NCBI GenBank assembly: GCA_963169235.1
Contig: CAUJCX010000058.1
Coordinates: forward strand, 1-38,073
Direction: 5' to 3'
DNA length: 38,073 nucleotides
From: Actinomycetota bacterium
GTDB lineage: Bacteria; Actinomycetota; Thermoleophilia; Miltoncostaeales; Miltoncostaeaceae
Below, piece by piece: positions 31,661-38,073 of this stretch. Position 1 is the stretch's first letter. The number at the start of each line of letters is the position of its first letter. Under the pieces are notes generated by a model. It was not told where the DNA came from, made no database searches, and saw nothing but the letters and a program-made list of their open reading frames with translations. Position numbers and translations under genes: made by a program.

Positions 31661-31912
31661 TCAGCAACGGCCGCGACGGCGGCTCGCCGCCGACACGCCG
31701 TCGGCCAGCGCGTCGGCCAGCTGCGCCCGTTCGACGGCCCGCGCCAGGCGCACGCGGGTGCGGTCCAGCTGCATGCGGTCGGCCTCGTCGAGCGTCCCGT
31801 CGTCGGCCACGCGCTGCATGTGCTCCACCCGTTGCGACAGCTCGCGCACCCGCTGCCAGAGGCCGTCCGCGACGGCGTCCGCCCCGGCGGCGCCTGCGCG
31901 GCCCGACGTCAC
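31661..31912 (-). CDS. 83-aa helical protein coupled to the helicase gene
   Basis: A small, charged, alanine- and arginine-rich protein (residues about 18-72 form heptad-like helices, e.g. RVRELSQRVEHMQRVADD) likely to be a coiled coil. It has no signal or membrane helix. GTG 31912 overlaps the helicase stop as GTGA, which is good evidence that it is a real gene translated from the same message. No family is recognised. Coiled-coil partners of helicases are common, but no function is claimed. Confidence 0.6.
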   Translation of the reverse strand: MTSGRAGAAGADAVADGLWQRVRELSQRVEHMQRVADDGTLDEADRMQLDRTRVRLARAVERAQLADALADGVSAASRRRGRC

Positions 31913-34428
31913 GTGTCCCCGGTCTCCGGGGCGGTTCCACCCTCGCCCGCGCCCGCGCTGCGCGAGCGGCGGCGACGGCGGCGACGGCGAGAACGCGCGG
32001 GCGGCGTCGCGTCATCCGGGGTGGGGGACGTAGACCCGTCCGTCTGCTCGGCGGCGGACGCCTCGACGGACGCGCCGTCGGTGGTGGCTCCCTGCGCCGC
32101 GCCGGTCGCCGGCGAGTGCATGCGGCGGCGGCGACGGCGCCGGGTGCGGCTTCCCCCGTCGTCGCCGTCCTTGCGCCGCGGCTCGCCGATGTCGAGGTCC
32201 TCGGCCGCGGGCAGGCGCGGGAACCGGGCGCGCAGCACGTTCCACGCCCGCTTGTTGGTGAGCGCCTTGGGGTGGGTGGCGCCGACGGCGGCGCGCAGCG
32301 CCCGGCGGGCGTCGGCCGTGGTGAAGTCGACGGCGTCGAGCACGCCGCGCAACTGCGCCCAGCCCCCGGCGGCGGCGGCGGCGCGCGACGCCAGGCGCAC
32401 CTGCTCGGGGCGCGTGGGCCAGTCGCCCGGTCCCAGCAGCACCATCAGGCGCGCCGCCTGGCCGATGCGCAGGGTGGTGTCGTCGGTGGGCGGCACGGGC
32501 TCGGGGGGCGGTCCCCCGGCGGCCCGCAGCCACGCCACCAGCAGCATCGGCTCGCCCCCGTTGGTGATGAGGTGGCGCGCCTCCCACGCGGCGATGCGCG
32601 TGGCGTCCTGGCTGCGTCCCGGGCGGTGCGTCTCGGCCAGCCCCCTGCTGACGTCCCAGGCCCACGCGGGCGCCCACGACGACGCCTCGTCCAGCGCGGT
32701 CCAACGCCGGCGGCGGTCGCTCGAGCGGCCGAGCTGCTCGAGGGCCGTGACGCGGTCCCACTTGCCCGCCGCGTCGGCGTAGTACCACAGGGCGCGCAGG
32801 CGCTCGCGGCCGGTCATCCGCAGGCGGTCGAGCACCTTGCGCGGCACGTCGTCGGGCAGCATCTGGCGCAGCTGCGGCTGCACCACCAGGGCCATGGCCC
32901 ACTCGCGCCACATCGCCTGGTCGCCGGCCCCGTTCGCCTTGCGCGCCAGCACGCCCGTGAGGCCCCACCACGCCAGGCCGGCCTCGGGGGCCAGACCCGC
33001 CGCGACGCGGTCGGCCACCTCCTGGCACGTCGCGTCCTTGGCGGCGGCGTCGATCCACTCCTCGAGGATGATGCCGCGCAGCACCGCCGCGTCGGCCTCG
33101 CGCCAGCCGCCGTCCCTGAAACCGGCGGCGATCTCGTGGTGGTTGGCCAGCGTGTTGACCAGCTCGGCCCCGCCCTCGCCGCTCTCGGCCAGCACCCGCG
33201 CGGCGCGCGCCAGCTTGGTGCGCTCGTCGCCCGTGTCGGGCGGGCCCGCGACCCGGCCCAGCGGCTTGTACCAGCCCACGCCGAACACGTCGTGGCTGGT
33301 TTGCACGCCCATGGGATCGCCCTTGGGCAGGAACTCGACGGACACCGCCTCCTTGTCGGGGGCGGGCCGCATCACCCGCCCCAGGCGCTGTACGAACACG
33401 CGCTCGCTGGTGGTGGGCGCCAGGTGCATCACCACGGACGCGCGGGTCTCGTCCCACCCTTCCGTGAGCAGGTCGGCGTTGCACAGCACGTCGATGATGC
33501 CGGCGCCGAACTCCTTGAGCGTGCGCTGAAGCTCCCGCGGAGGGGTCTGCCCCGACACGGCGGCGGCCTTCACGCCCCGCAGGCGCATCTCCTCGGCCAG
33601 CGCGTGCGCCTGCGCCACCGTGGCCGTGTACGCGACGCCCGCCAGCTCGAGCGGCGCGAAGTGCGTCGACCAGACGTCCGCGCACGCCTTGTGCCACAGC
33701 GCGCGGTCGAGGGCCCGGCCCAGGCTGCCCTGGTCGAAGTCGCCCCGCACCTTGGCCACGTCGGACAGGTCGACCGACTTCTCGACGCGCAACGAGCGCA
33801 GCGGGGCGAGGATGCCGCGCTCCATGGCCGATCCGCGGTCGAGCGTGGTGGCGACCGGGCCGAAGATCTGCTCGACGTGTCCCGTGGTGGTGGAGCCGGT
33901 CGCCGTGAACCCGACGATGACCGCCTCGGTGGCCCGGTCGAGCATGCGGCGCGTCTGGGCGCCCAGCGCGGTGTGCGCCTCGTCGCAGACCAGCAGGTCG
34001 ATGGCGGCCCAGTCGATGGTGTCCGCGTGCCGCAGCGCCGCCTGGTACGTCACCACCGTCGCGCCGGGGCGGCCGATGGACTCGACGCCGTCCTCGTGCA
34101 CCGTGACGCCGGGGAAGTGGCGGTGGAAGCCGGCCACGGTCTGCTCGGCGAGGTTGCGCCGGGGCACCAGCACGGTCACCGAGCCACCGACCGCCGCGGC
34201 CAGTGCGCAGAACATGACCGTCTTGCCGGACCCGGTGGGCGCGTCCACCCACGTGCGGCGCACGCCGTGGCTCAGGCGCACGGCCAGCTCGTCGAGCGCC
34301 TCGATCTGATGCGGACGCAGCACGACGTCGGGCCACGCCACGCCGGGTTCGGCGAGCGCAGCGTGCAACGCCGCGGACGGGTCCGGCGGGGCGCTGATGT
34401 CGGTCATGGGATGCAGGCCGTCAGGCAT
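31909..34428 (-). CDS. SF2 DEAH-type helicase with Arg-rich C-terminal tail
   Basis: A roughly 839-aa protein. Residues 38-70 carry a Q-motif-like LRPHQIEALDEL and Walker A APTGSGKT (63-70). DEAH follows at 149-152, GFTATG as motif III, then a second RecA fold ending in motif VI QRLGRVMRP. The order resembles RadD- or SSL2/XPB-like SF2 helicases that act on DNA or RNA. The rest (about 430-755) is helical with no recognised domain. The last 85 residues are low-complexity and hold two arginine runs: about 761-769 and about 812-823 (RSRRRRRRRR plus SR). Such tails often bind nucleic acid. The start is taken as ATG 34428 (alternative ATG 34407); the frame is open further upstream but that part is not homologous. 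Confidence 0.85.
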   Translation of the reverse strand: MPDGLHPMTDISAPPDPSAALHAALAEPGVAWPDVVLRPHQIEALDELAVRLSHGVRRTWVDAPTGSGKTVMFCALAAAVGGSVTVLVPRRNLAEQTVAGFHRHFPGVTVHEDGVESIGRPGATVVTYQAALRHADTIDWAAIDLLVCDEAHTALGAQTRRMLDRATEAVIVGFTATGSTTTGHVEQIFGPVATTLDRGSAMERGILAPLRSLRVEKSVDLSDVAKVRGDFDQGSLGRALDRALWHKACADVWSTHFAPLELAGVAYTATVAQAHALAEEMRLRGVKAAAVSGQTPPRELQRTLKEFGAGIIDVLCNADLLTEGWDETRASVVMHLAPTTSERVFVQRLGRVMRPAPDKEAVSVEFLPKGDPMGVQTSHDVFGVGWYKPLGRVAGPPDTGDERTKLARAARVLAESGEGGAELVNTLANHHEIAAGFRDGGWREADAAVLRGIILEEWIDAAAKDATCQEVADRVAAGLAPEAGLAWWGLTGVLARKANGAGDQAMWREWAMALVVQPQLRQMLPDDVPRKVLDRLRMTGRERLRALWYYADAAGKWDRVTALEQLGRSSDRRRRWTALDEASSWAPAWAWDVSRGLAETHRPGRSQDATRIAAWEARHLITNGGEPMLLVAWLRAAGGPPPEPVPPTDDTTLRIGQAARLMVLLGPGDWPTRPEQVRLASRAAAAAGGWAQLRGVLDAVDFTTADARRALRAAVGATHPKALTNKRAWNVLRARFPRLPAAEDLDIGEPRRKDGDDGGSRTRRRRRRRMHSPATGAAQGATTDGASVEASAAEQTDGSTSPTPDDATPPARSRRRRRRRRSRSAGAGEGGTAPETGDT

Positions 34429-34690: not shown

Positions 34691-35206
34691 GTGAACGACA
34701 CCCGCCCCTCACGCTCCGGTTCCATCGCGCTGTTCGCCGCGGGCGCGCTCGCGTGCATCGTCGCGGGCTTCCTTGTCGGCTGGTTCGTGCGCGGCAGCGG
34801 CGGCGATGTGGCCGTGCTGCCCCCGGTCTCCGCGCCCGCGACGTCCACGAGCCAGCACGCCACGACCACCACGGCCACCACCGCGACGCCCGCGGCTCCC
34901 GAGCTGCCCAAGCCGGCCGACATCAAGCTGGCGGTGCTGAACGGCACCACGATCGCGGGCTTCGCGGCCAAGACGGCGGGTCGCGCGCAGGGCCTCGGCT
35001 ACCCGGCGCCCACCGCGGGCAACACGCCCACCACCACCGATCCGACCACCGTCTACTTCCGCGAGGGCAAGCGCCCGGCGGCGCAGCGGGTGGCCAAGGA
35101 CCTGGGCTTCACCACCATCAAGGCGCTGCCCACGTCGGGGGCGGTCGCCACGTCGGCGCCCGCGACGGCCGACGTGGTCGTGGTGCTGGGTGCCACCGGC
35201 ACCTGA
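34691..35206 (+). CDS. Membrane-anchored LytR_C domain protein
   Basis: A 171-aa protein with one N-terminal membrane helix (about 12-31), a Thr/Ala/Pro-rich linker (about 45-70), and a C-terminal domain starting IKLAVLNGTTIAGFAAKTA. That NGT-xx-G-A motif is typical of the LytR_C (LytR/CpsA/Psr C-terminal) domain, found in actinobacterial wall proteins. There is no LCP catalytic domain, so it is a stand-alone LytR_C protein facing outward. It may bind wall polymer; its function is unknown. It starts at GTG 34691; no strong ribosome binding site is seen. Confidence 0.8.
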   Translation: MNDTRPSRSGSIALFAAGALACIVAGFLVGWFVRGSGGDVAVLPPVSAPATSTSQHATTTTATTATPAAPELPKPADIKLAVLNGTTIAGFAAKTAGRAQGLGYPAPTAGNTPTTTDPTTVYFREGKRPAAQRVAKDLGFTTIKALPTSGAVATSAPATADVVVVLGATGT

Positions 35207-35234: not shown

Positions 35235-37655
35235 ATGCGCCTCGGCGTCCGGCTCCCCCAGTACGCGTCCGACTGGCACACGCTGCGGACCACCGCCGTC
35301 GCCCTGAACCGGCGCGGGGTCGATCACCTGTGGGTGAACGACCATCTGGAGTTCCCCGGCCGCCACGCCGAGGTCGACGCGTTCGAGGCGTACACCACGC
35401 TGGCGGCGGTCGCGGCGACGGTGCCGGAGGCGCGCCTGGGGGTGGTGGTCGCCTGCGCCGCGTACCGCCCGCCCGCGGTGGTGGCGAAGATGATGTCGAT
35501 CATCGACAACATCGGCGGGGGCGGGGTCATCCTGGGCCTCGGCGCGGGATCCAACCGGCGGGAGCACCAGCACTTCGGCGTGCCGTGGCGCGACCGCCGG
35601 GGCCGGACGGACGCGCTGAAGGAGGCCGTGGCGGTCGTGGCCGCGATGCGTGACCAGCCCACCGGGGCGACGGTCGCGGGAGCCGTCGACGGCGCCCCCA
35701 ACCTGCCGGCGCCCACCCGGTTCCCCATCTGGGTGGCCGCCCACCGTCCCGTGCTGCTGCGCTTCGCGGGCGCCCACGCCGACGGCGTCGTGGCGGCCTG
35801 GACGTCGCCGGCCGAGCTGCGCGCCCGTCTGGACGTCTGCGACGCGGCGGCCGCGGAGGCGGGCCGTGCGCGGCCGGCGGCGTGCGTCTACACGTTCTGT
35901 CTACCGGCGTCCTCCCCCGCCGAGATCGACGACTGGCTGGCCGCGGAGGCCGCGACCCTGGGGACGACGCCGCGCGCACTCGCCCGCTGGGTACGGTCCA
36001 CCGGCATCGTCGGATCGCCCGCGGACGTGCGCGCCCACCTGCGGGCGCTGGCCGACGGGGGGGCGACCGACTGCGTGCTGTGCCTGCCGAACCAGGTCCC
36101 ACTGGAGGCGTTCCTGGCGACGTCCGAGTGCCGGGTGGACGACCCCGACCCCCGCCCCGCGCCCACCGTTCCGGTGGACACCGGGCACGAACGCACGGAC
36201 GCGAGCCTGGTCTACACGCTGGTGGGCCGCCACGTGCGGGAGGGTCGCGGCGACTTCACGGCCGTGTGCGACGCGGCCGGTGAGCTCTCGTACGCCGAGC
36301 TGGCCCGGACGGTGAAGCGCGCGGCGGGCGCCCTCCACGAGCGCGGCATCGGCCCCGGCGACCGCGTGGTGGTGGCGCTCCCGGACGGGCGGGACTGGGT
36401 GGCGGCGTTTCTGGGCGCGGCGGCCGTCGGCGCCGTGGCGGTGCCGCTTGACCCCGCAGCGCCACCGGACGTCGTCGACTCGATCCTCGAGGACTGCGCG
36501 CCCCGGGTGGTGGTGGCCGGCCCCTCCGTCGCGGTCGGGGCGCACCCGCGCATGGAGCCCGCGCTGCTGGCCGAGGGCTACGAGCGCATGGCGCGCGCCG
36601 TGCACCCCGACGACCTCGCCTACATCATCTACTCGTCAGGGTCGACCGGGCGGCCCAAGGGCGCCATGCACGCCCACCGCGACATGGCGGTGTCGATCGA
36701 GGGCTACGCGCGCCAGGTGCTGGGCATGGCCCCCGGGGTGCGGTGCCACTCGGCGGCGCGCCTGTTCACCAGCCTCGGGTTCGGCAACGGTTTCTTCCGC
36801 CCGCTGGGGTGCGGGGCGACGGCGGTGTTCAGCGGCGTGCGGCCGAACCCGCGCGCCACGCTCGACCTGGTGCGACGCGAGCGCATCGAGGTGCTGACGG
36901 CGGTCCCGACGTTCTGGTCGCAGCTGGCGGCGTTCCTCGAGCGCCACCCCGCCGACGATCCCCTGGCCAGCGTGCGGCTGGCGGTGTCGTCCGGGGACTT
37001 CCTGCCGCCCGCCGTGTCGGACCGCGTGCGCAGGCTGACGGGCCACGAGCTGATGCAGGGGCTGGGCTGCTCGGAGTGCAGCAACGTGGTGCTGTCGACG
37101 CGGGCGGGCGAGCGCCCCCGCGACCTGGGCACGATCGTCCCCGGCGCCGAGGTGGAGCTGCGCGACCCCGACGGTCGCCCCGTGGGCGACGGCGAGCCGG
37201 GGCGGCTGTGGATCCGGTGCGCGTCGAACACCACCGGGTACTGGCGGCGGCGCGAGCTCACGCGCGAGCTGGTGCACGGCGAATGGCTGAGGATGGGCGA
37301 CATCCTGCTGTGCCGTGACGGCCGCTACCGCCACGTGGGACGCGCCGACGACCTGTTCAAGGTCGACGCGCGGTGGGTCGTGCCGTCGCGCGTGGAGGGG
37401 TGCCTGGTGGAGCTGCCCGAGGTGGCCGCGGCGGCCGTGGCGGGGGTTGACGACGAGGACGGCCTCACGCGCGTGCACGCCTGGGTGGTGGCGCGCGCCG
37501 GCGCCGACGTCGACCCCGTCGCGCTGCGTCGCCACGTCGCCCACCGCCTGGGCCCGCACCAGGCGCCGCAGTCGGTGTGGCTGCGCGACGCGCTCCCCAG
37601 CCTGCCGTCCGGCAAGCTTGACCGGCGCGCGCTCACCCCCGGCGAGACGCGCTAA
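35235..37655 (+). CDS. Fusion of LLM-class oxidoreductase and benzoate-CoA-ligase-like enzyme
   Basis: An 806-aa protein made of two enzymes. Residues 1-300 are an LLM-class (luciferase-like, F420- or FMN-dependent) oxidoreductase: MRLGVRLPQY, HLWVNDHLEF, then GLGAGSNRREHQHFGVPW (about 101-118). After a linker (300-325) comes an ANL adenylating enzyme: P-loop YSSGSTGRPKG (466-476), MGDILL (Asp689), GRADDLFKVDARWV (702-715) and the catalytic lysine Lys794 in PSGKLDRR. Details match benzoate-CoA ligases, so an aromatic or similar carboxylic acid is the likely substrate: activated to an acyl-AMP, then to the CoA thioester. No carrier-protein domain is present. Both parts look complete, so two activities in one chain are expected. 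The stop codon overlaps that of the opposing hydrolase gene (CTAA at 37652-37655). Confidence 0.9.
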   Translation: MRLGVRLPQYASDWHTLRTTAVALNRRGVDHLWVNDHLEFPGRHAEVDAFEAYTTLAAVAATVPEARLGVVVACAAYRPPAVVAKMMSIIDNIGGGGVILGLGAGSNRREHQHFGVPWRDRRGRTDALKEAVAVVAAMRDQPTGATVAGAVDGAPNLPAPTRFPIWVAAHRPVLLRFAGAHADGVVAAWTSPAELRARLDVCDAAAAEAGRARPAACVYTFCLPASSPAEIDDWLAAEAATLGTTPRALARWVRSTGIVGSPADVRAHLRALADGGATDCVLCLPNQVPLEAFLATSECRVDDPDPRPAPTVPVDTGHERTDASLVYTLVGRHVREGRGDFTAVCDAAGELSYAELARTVKRAAGALHERGIGPGDRVVVALPDGRDWVAAFLGAAAVGAVAVPLDPAAPPDVVDSILEDCAPRVVVAGPSVAVGAHPRMEPALLAEGYERMARAVHPDDLAYIIYSSGSTGRPKGAMHAHRDMAVSIEGYARQVLGMAPGVRCHSAARLFTSLGFGNGFFRPLGCGATAVFSGVRPNPRATLDLVRRERIEVLTAVPTFWSQLAAFLERHPADDPLASVRLAVSSGDFLPPAVSDRVRRLTGHELMQGLGCSECSNVVLSTRAGERPRDLGTIVPGAEVELRDPDGRPVGDGEPGRLWIRCASNTTGYWRRRELTRELVHGEWLRMGDILLCRDGRYRHVGRADDLFKVDARWVVPSRVEGCLVELPEVAAAAVAGVDDEDGLTRVHAWVVARAGADVDPVALRRHVAHRLGPHQAPQSVWLRDALPSLPSGKLDRRALTPGETR

Positions 37656-38073
37656 CGCTCGCGGCCCAGCCAGTCGACGAGCAGCGCGTTGACGGCGCCG
37701 GGCGCCTCCTGTTGCACCCAGTGGCTGACCCCCGGCAGCACCTCCACGCGCACGTCGCCCGTGCACTTGGCGACCGACCGCTCGCGCAGCTCGTCACCGA
37801 GGTACGCGTCGCCGTCGCCCCACACCACCATGGTGGGCACGGACACCGGCGGCAGCTGGGGTGGCTCGCGCAGCCAGGCCTCGGGAGGCATGTTGGCCCG
37901 GTAGTAGTTCAGCGCGGCGGTCAGGGCGCCCACCTCGCGGAACGCCGCCAGGAAGTGGTCGACGTCGGCGGGCGTGAACGTGCCGGGCGCCGCGTTGTCG
38001 AAGACCATCGCGCGCAGCTGCGCGTGGTCGTCCATGGTGAACCACTGCTCGGCGATGCCGGGGAACTGGAACA
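37652..38073 (-). CDS. Alpha/beta hydrolase, C-terminal part (cut by window edge)
   Basis: The 140-residue C-terminal part of an alpha/beta hydrolase; it continues past position 38073 with no start in the window. Visible are a cap-like helical region, VSVPTMVVWGDGDAYLG with the acidic catalytic residue of the triad, and LPGVSHWVQQEAPGAVNALL with the catalytic histidine. The pattern resembles epoxide hydrolases or haloalkane dehalogenase-like esterases. The nucleophile is outside the window, so the reaction cannot be chosen. It converges with the fusion gene. Confidence 0.8.
   Translation of the reverse strand, partial: FQFPGIAEQWFTMDDHAQLRAMVFDNAAPGTFTPADVDHFLAAFREVGALTAALNYYRANMPPEAWLREPPQLPPVSVPTMVVWGDGDAYLGDELRERSVAKCTGDVRVEVLPGVSHWVQQEAPGAVNALLVDWLGRER

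Follow-up and report, generated by a model that had tools for sequence, protein, structure and literature searches.

A luciferase-like F420-type domain fused to an acyl-adenylating ligase in Miltoncostaeales: a candidate bifunctional enzyme

Introduction

Do a luciferase-like (LLM) oxidoreductase domain and an acid-activating ligase domain that share one polypeptide also share a pathway? The question is raised by a gene in the window, by which we mean the whole 38,073-nt stretch of DNA analysed here, one contig of a 2.94-Mb, 65-contig metagenome-assembled genome (MAG) that is 96% complete. Gene fusions reveal which enzymes cooperate, and for most F420-type luciferase-like enzymes, to our knowledge, no substrate has been identified; finding one tied to an acid-activating partner narrows the substrate search to a carboxylic acid and a redox partner. 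The reading we favour, and to which we assign a probability of about one half, is a bifunctional enzyme fixed in one family, whose F420-type redox domain would oxidise a substrate and whose ANL domain would then activate the acid. If this is true, F420-coupled carboxylate activation would define a new class of bifunctional enzymes, one that serves as a signature of the Miltoncostaeales and derives from a once separate gene pair.

A single frame encodes two complete domains

The fusion is a single open frame of 806 aa (35235–37655, + strand) with an ATG start and no internal stops, and its assignment as one gene is supported by its Pfam domains and by full-length orthologues. Residues 9–278 match Bac_luciferase (PF00296) with 115 bits against a gathering score of 27.9, while residues 336–670 match AMP-binding (250 bits) and residues 720–794 match AMP-binding_C (48.5 bits), both far over their cut-offs; the Pfam scan found no carrier domain in the 806-aa protein. 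Together with an AlphaFold model, the first match delimits a luciferase-like, F420-type hydride transferase domain (residues 1–298; 35235–36128, +), and the other two, together with fold comparison, an acyl-adenylating/acyl-CoA ligase domain (residues 323–806; 36201–37652, +). Between them lies a variable, Pro/Ala-rich linker (residues about 299–322; 36129–36200, +), which is hypervariable in length and sequence in an alignment of 32 fusions and falls below a pLDDT of 50 at residues 303–321 of the full-length structure model. That model (pLDDT 75, pTM 0.55) leaves the relative placement of the two domains undefined.

The G+C content of the window is 74%. Since mononucleotide shuffles of this sequence produce stop-free runs of up to 884 codons, the length of the frame is no evidence in itself and we relied on homology and coding signal instead; a chance frame in such DNA is ruled out by homology, not by length. 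G+C is 0.95–0.97 at third and 0.51–0.57 at second codon positions, alike in the two halves and the linker between them, and this uniformity across the junction indicates that the halves are not joined by a frameshift. In many genomes assembled independently, full-length orthologues read through the junction without interruption; this, with the uniform codon-position G+C, rules out a sequencing or assembly join. An earlier reading of this DNA from its sequence only (hereafter the sequence-only reading) had described two complete-looking halves joined in one 806-aa frame with no frameshift or stop; the frame and its Pfam domains bear out the first point, and the orthologues and codon-position signal the second.

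The fusion is confined to one family among the genomes searched

A search of 101 relatives returned fused orthologues at 49–72% identity end to end throughout the family. Of 42 family (Miltoncostaeales) genomes, about 35 have the frame fused across the junction. The halves are encoded as separate genes in three (G005, G007 and G016), both are absent from three others (G002, G014 and G022), and in G024 a contig break hides whether they are fused or split. With the LLM half as query, matches at E <= 1e-40 appeared in 39 of the 42 family genomes, and the 357 class genomes from outside the family gave none. No full-length fusion was seen outside the family in a phylum sample of 396 genomes, which yielded separate LLM or ligase matches only; one apparent LLM-plus-ligase match (G436) was rejected, the 281-aa gene beside its ligase being no recognised LLM relative. 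Viral or plasmid carriage was likewise rejected, as searches found neither a viral relative nor a full-length plasmid match.

Fused family-wide and found nowhere else searched, the locus fits a lineage-specific gene fusion, that is, a "Rosetta stone" pair, and a pairing conserved to this extent probably reflects two linked steps on one compound. As nearly all members of this little-studied lineage have the pair and the 357 other class genomes lack it, the step itself is probably particular to the lineage. The sequence-only reading knew of no standard family with this architecture, and it is not a standard one in the libraries used here either; it would have been undermined had all close relatives been split, and about 35 are fused against three split. 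Both domain families are already known, and it is their free bifunctional combination without carrier domains that is undescribed in the literature we searched, where no account of an LLM-plus-ligase architecture was found.

The N-terminal half is closest to F420-dependent hydride transferases

The LLM motifs W.NDH...PGR, YR and GS...EH are conserved in the family. The first is the active-site loop, whose N35-D36-H37 (35337–35345, +) is conserved in the family alignment and whose D-H aligns with the D-H of Mer, and E110-H111 of the GSxxxEH motif (35562–35567, +) is invariant in 16 sequences. Modelled alone with AlphaFold the half reaches a pLDDT of 87, and the 14 solved structures closest to this predicted fold are all F420 enzymes (Z 28.4–30.2), headed by Mer, Fgd, Adf and FGD2; FMN monooxygenases rank next, at Z 28.2 and below, so that the margin is small. 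In sequence, the closest PDB entries are the F420-dependent Mer, Fgd and hydroxymycolate dehydrogenase, and the best NCBIfam models are F420-dependent classes, all of them below their cut-offs: the highest score is 114.2 bits against 231.4 (TIGR03560/named F420 LLM subfamilies), and the NRPS-type LLM model TIGR04020 gives 19.9 bits against 244.45. Since it falls below every NCBIfam subfamily cut-off, the LLM half represents a new subgroup, which by sequence and predicted fold lies nearest to the F420-dependent hydride transferases.

With Mer, Fgd, Adf and FGD2/HMAD the half has in common the LLM TIM-barrel fold and the D-H loop, and these are its nearest sequences and folds; unlike the fusion, Mer, Fgd, Adf and FGD2 are stand-alone enzymes. 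The mycobacterial PDIM/PGL locus likewise has an F420 hydride transferase, phthiodiolone ketoreductase, working with acyl-activating enzymes, presumably the FadD ligases that we take its gene to adjoin, but there the genes are separate and the context is polyketide synthesis. LLM domains embedded in NRPS/PKS systems (TIGR04020; the OX domain 6KET; the palmerolide LLM) also sit in megasynthases with adenylation domains (PMC8739492). The fusion differs from these in having no carrier, condensation or ketosynthase domains and in its N-terminal LLM domain.

Proposed reaction and its order

We propose that the N-terminal TIM-barrel acts as an F420-type hydride transferase that would oxidise (or reduce) a small organic molecule, presumably with F420, and that the C-terminal ANL domain would turn a carboxylic acid and ATP into an acyl-adenylate, which would most likely be passed on to CoA. 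In the order that we favour, admittedly a guess, the LLM domain would produce the acid by oxidising an alcohol, hemiacetal or aldehyde, and the ligase would then form the acyl-CoA. Oxidation is placed first because the known F420 hydride transferases include dehydrogenases of alcohols and sugars (Adf and Fgd; PMC8498797), which offer an analogy. Direct coupling of both steps is suggested by the fusion together with the split pairs. We claim only tentatively that hydride transfer with the deazaflavin F420 and activation of a carboxylate are coupled on a single chain, which would take, for example, an aldehyde or alcohol directly to an acyl-CoA. Counting against the bifunctional reading are the failure to find Cof genes in some hosts, the lack of pathway neighbours and the discordance of the half-trees, and an alanine at motif A8 of the ligase (KVDA) might weaken thioester formation.

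The ligase could instead act first, making an acyl-CoA (or acyl-AMP) as the substrate for reduction, desaturation or hydroxylation by the LLM domain. We regard this order as doubtful, though it has precedents: long acyl molecules are substrates of F420 hydride transferases such as phthiodiolone ketoreductase (PMC8498797), and tethered acyl chains are the proposed substrates of LLM domains in PKS/NRPS systems (PMC8739492), whereas the fusion has no carrier domain. The order of the domains along the polypeptide is uninformative on the order of the reactions.

F420 genes are patchy among the hosts

F420 genes are distributed patchily across the family, which raises the question of which cofactor the fusion really uses. 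CofD, CofG and CofE are found in most family genomes. They were not found in the 96%-complete MAG of the window, and all three are missing in G000, G001, G003, G004, G010, G012, G015 and G019, each of which bears the fusion. Two CofH matches in the MAG itself (312 and 289 bits) are below cut-off and were not counted as F420 genes; they could belong to menaquinone synthesis, which has related radical-SAM enzymes.

This pattern is what would be expected if the LLM half were an FMN-dependent (reduced-flavin) monooxygenase and not an F420 enzyme, a possibility that we consider unlikely. In its favour, the three genes were not found in the MAG, in its genus sister or in the single-contig genome G012, and the LLM halves of genomes lacking Cof genes are undecayed, retaining 55–62 of 62 columns invariant elsewhere in the six tested; furthermore, the FMN monooxygenases SfnG, SsuD and RutA trail the best fold matches by only a few Z units. 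The top fold and sequence neighbours are nevertheless F420 enzymes, and the genomes without CofD, CofG and CofE keep F420H2-type FDOR genes (PF04075). In addition, cofD, cofE and cofG of G025 lie together (C3:4316–11058, locus L143) on a 46.6-kb contig, off the 3.68-Mb chromosome, and encode proteins 66–82% identical to those of family members. As this cluster is not chromosomal, the absence of Cof genes elsewhere may mean a missing plasmid or other replicon, or else the use of another flavin. Of the two cofactors that the sequence-only reading had allowed, F420 or FMN, fold and sequence thus favour the first, while the failure to find F420 biosynthesis genes in the MAG weighs against it.

The ligase half keeps the adenylation motifs and has an altered acyl pocket

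The ligase half carries all the features looked for in the ANL superfamily, namely AMP-binding and AMP-binding_C domains, the P-loop and the SGK lysine. The ATP-binding P-loop YSSGSTGRPK (residues 466–475; 36630–36659, +) is conserved in the family. Lys794 (37614–37616, +), which from general knowledge of the ANL superfamily we take to be the adenylation lysine, lies in a C-terminal SGK in the fused proteins; the split proteins and most outgroup proteins read SGK or TGK there. Since the P-loop (YSSGSTGRPKG), GCSE, GRxDD (here GRADD) and SGK/TGK motifs are kept in split and fused forms, adenylation should work.

Benzoate- and anthranilate-CoA ligases have the folds most like that predicted for this half (Z about 37–38). 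The best sequence and fold matches are the benzoate-CoA ligases (TIGR02262; BadA, 4EAT/4RLF; BclM, 2V7B) and AuaEII (4WV3), and the core ANL motifs are all common to the fusion, BadA/BclM and AuaEII. The benzoate-CoA ligase model TIGR02262 gives 340.2 bits against a cut-off of 375.25. When the pocket is located by way of the BadA H333A/I334A structure (6M2O), H333/I334 of BadA become N617/V618 in the fusion, and FAYGLGN becomes TSLGFGN; the latter belongs to a family-specific stretch of the acyl-pocket region, TSLGFGNGFFR (residues 512–522; 36768–36800, +), where benzoate-CoA ligases have FAYGLGNALTF and where R522 of the fusion is conserved. With a score below the TIGR02262 cut-off and an altered acyl pocket, benzoate is no safe guess and is unlikely to be the substrate, and the aromatic acid proposed earlier loses its support for the same reasons.

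Nearly all fused proteins have alanine in place of the conserved glycine of motif A8 (KVDA), and it is because of this replacement that one may ask whether the acyl-AMP formed by the ligase half is delivered to an acceptor other than CoA. Bulky substitutions at this glycine reportedly block thioesterification in acetyl-CoA synthetase, and two of the split ligases, those of G005 and G016, keep KVDG. Alanine, however, is a mild change, and it also occurs in the split G007 protein and in an unfused ligase paralogue of the family, so that we hold transfer to another acceptor to be improbable. A second ligase of the family, an unfused benzoate-ligase-like paralogue (L081, L082, L101, L103 and L104), has conserved neighbours of about 140 and 250 aa.

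Split pairs and the origin of the fusion

Orthologues with the two genes as separate neighbours, which the sequence-only reading had proposed to look for, do exist: among the three split relatives the genes adjoin in two, G007 and G016, where the LLM gene immediately precedes the ligase gene in the same orientation. G005 has its LLM gene at the syntenic place of the fusion, adjoining the conserved helicase gene, and its ligase gene beyond the helicase and a small gene. In the tree of ligase halves all fused proteins form one clade with the split ones outside, whereas in that of LLM halves the split forms are nested among the fused with modest support; the two trees thus disagree, weakly, on where the split forms belong. 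In a concatenated tree G007/G016 take a basal position (84/88), and the hypothesis that the fusion arose once, with all fused forms in one clade, is not rejected on this tree (p-AU = 0.344). The simplest reading is one fusion event joining a pre-existing gene pair, and a later fission in G005 could still have occurred. Two neighbouring genes would then have given rise to the bifunctional enzyme now fixed in this family. That the fusion is a co-expression device only, with domains serving separate pathways, would suit a linker that varies in length and sequence and the sufficiency of separate genes in three relatives, but the genes are still adjacent in two of these three and the pair is retained or lost jointly across the family, which makes this explanation highly improbable.

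Genomic neighbourhood

Across the relatives we found no conserved catabolic or biosynthetic neighbour gene, and since no metabolic gene constantly adjoins the fusion, its context names no pathway. An alpha/beta hydrolase gene (37652–38073, – strand; PF12697), of which the contig end leaves the 3' part, converges on the fusion and occurs at this place in a subset of relatives only. Its opposite strand, convergent orientation and inconsistent presence rule it out as a pathway partner; it is probably unrelated to the fusion, and the earlier idea that it acts on the product is not upheld. On the other side, 28 bp upstream and on the same strand, lies a gene for a 171-aa membrane-anchored protein with a LytR_C domain (34691–35206, +; PF13399, 54.8 bits). 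This gene is found upstream of the fusion in most relatives, in many of them with a 4-nt overlap with the fusion start, and is a probable operon partner. A divergent DEAD/ResIII helicase gene (31909–34428), the LytR_C gene and the fusion make up a conserved block.

Two further observations concern individual genomes. The fusion locus also appears in public MAGs titled Bifidobacterium breve (L025 and L036), and these titles look misassigned. Finally, G011 holds a second, diverged copy of the fusion (L058; G011:C71:5752–8175), situated away from the helicase/LytR_C locus.
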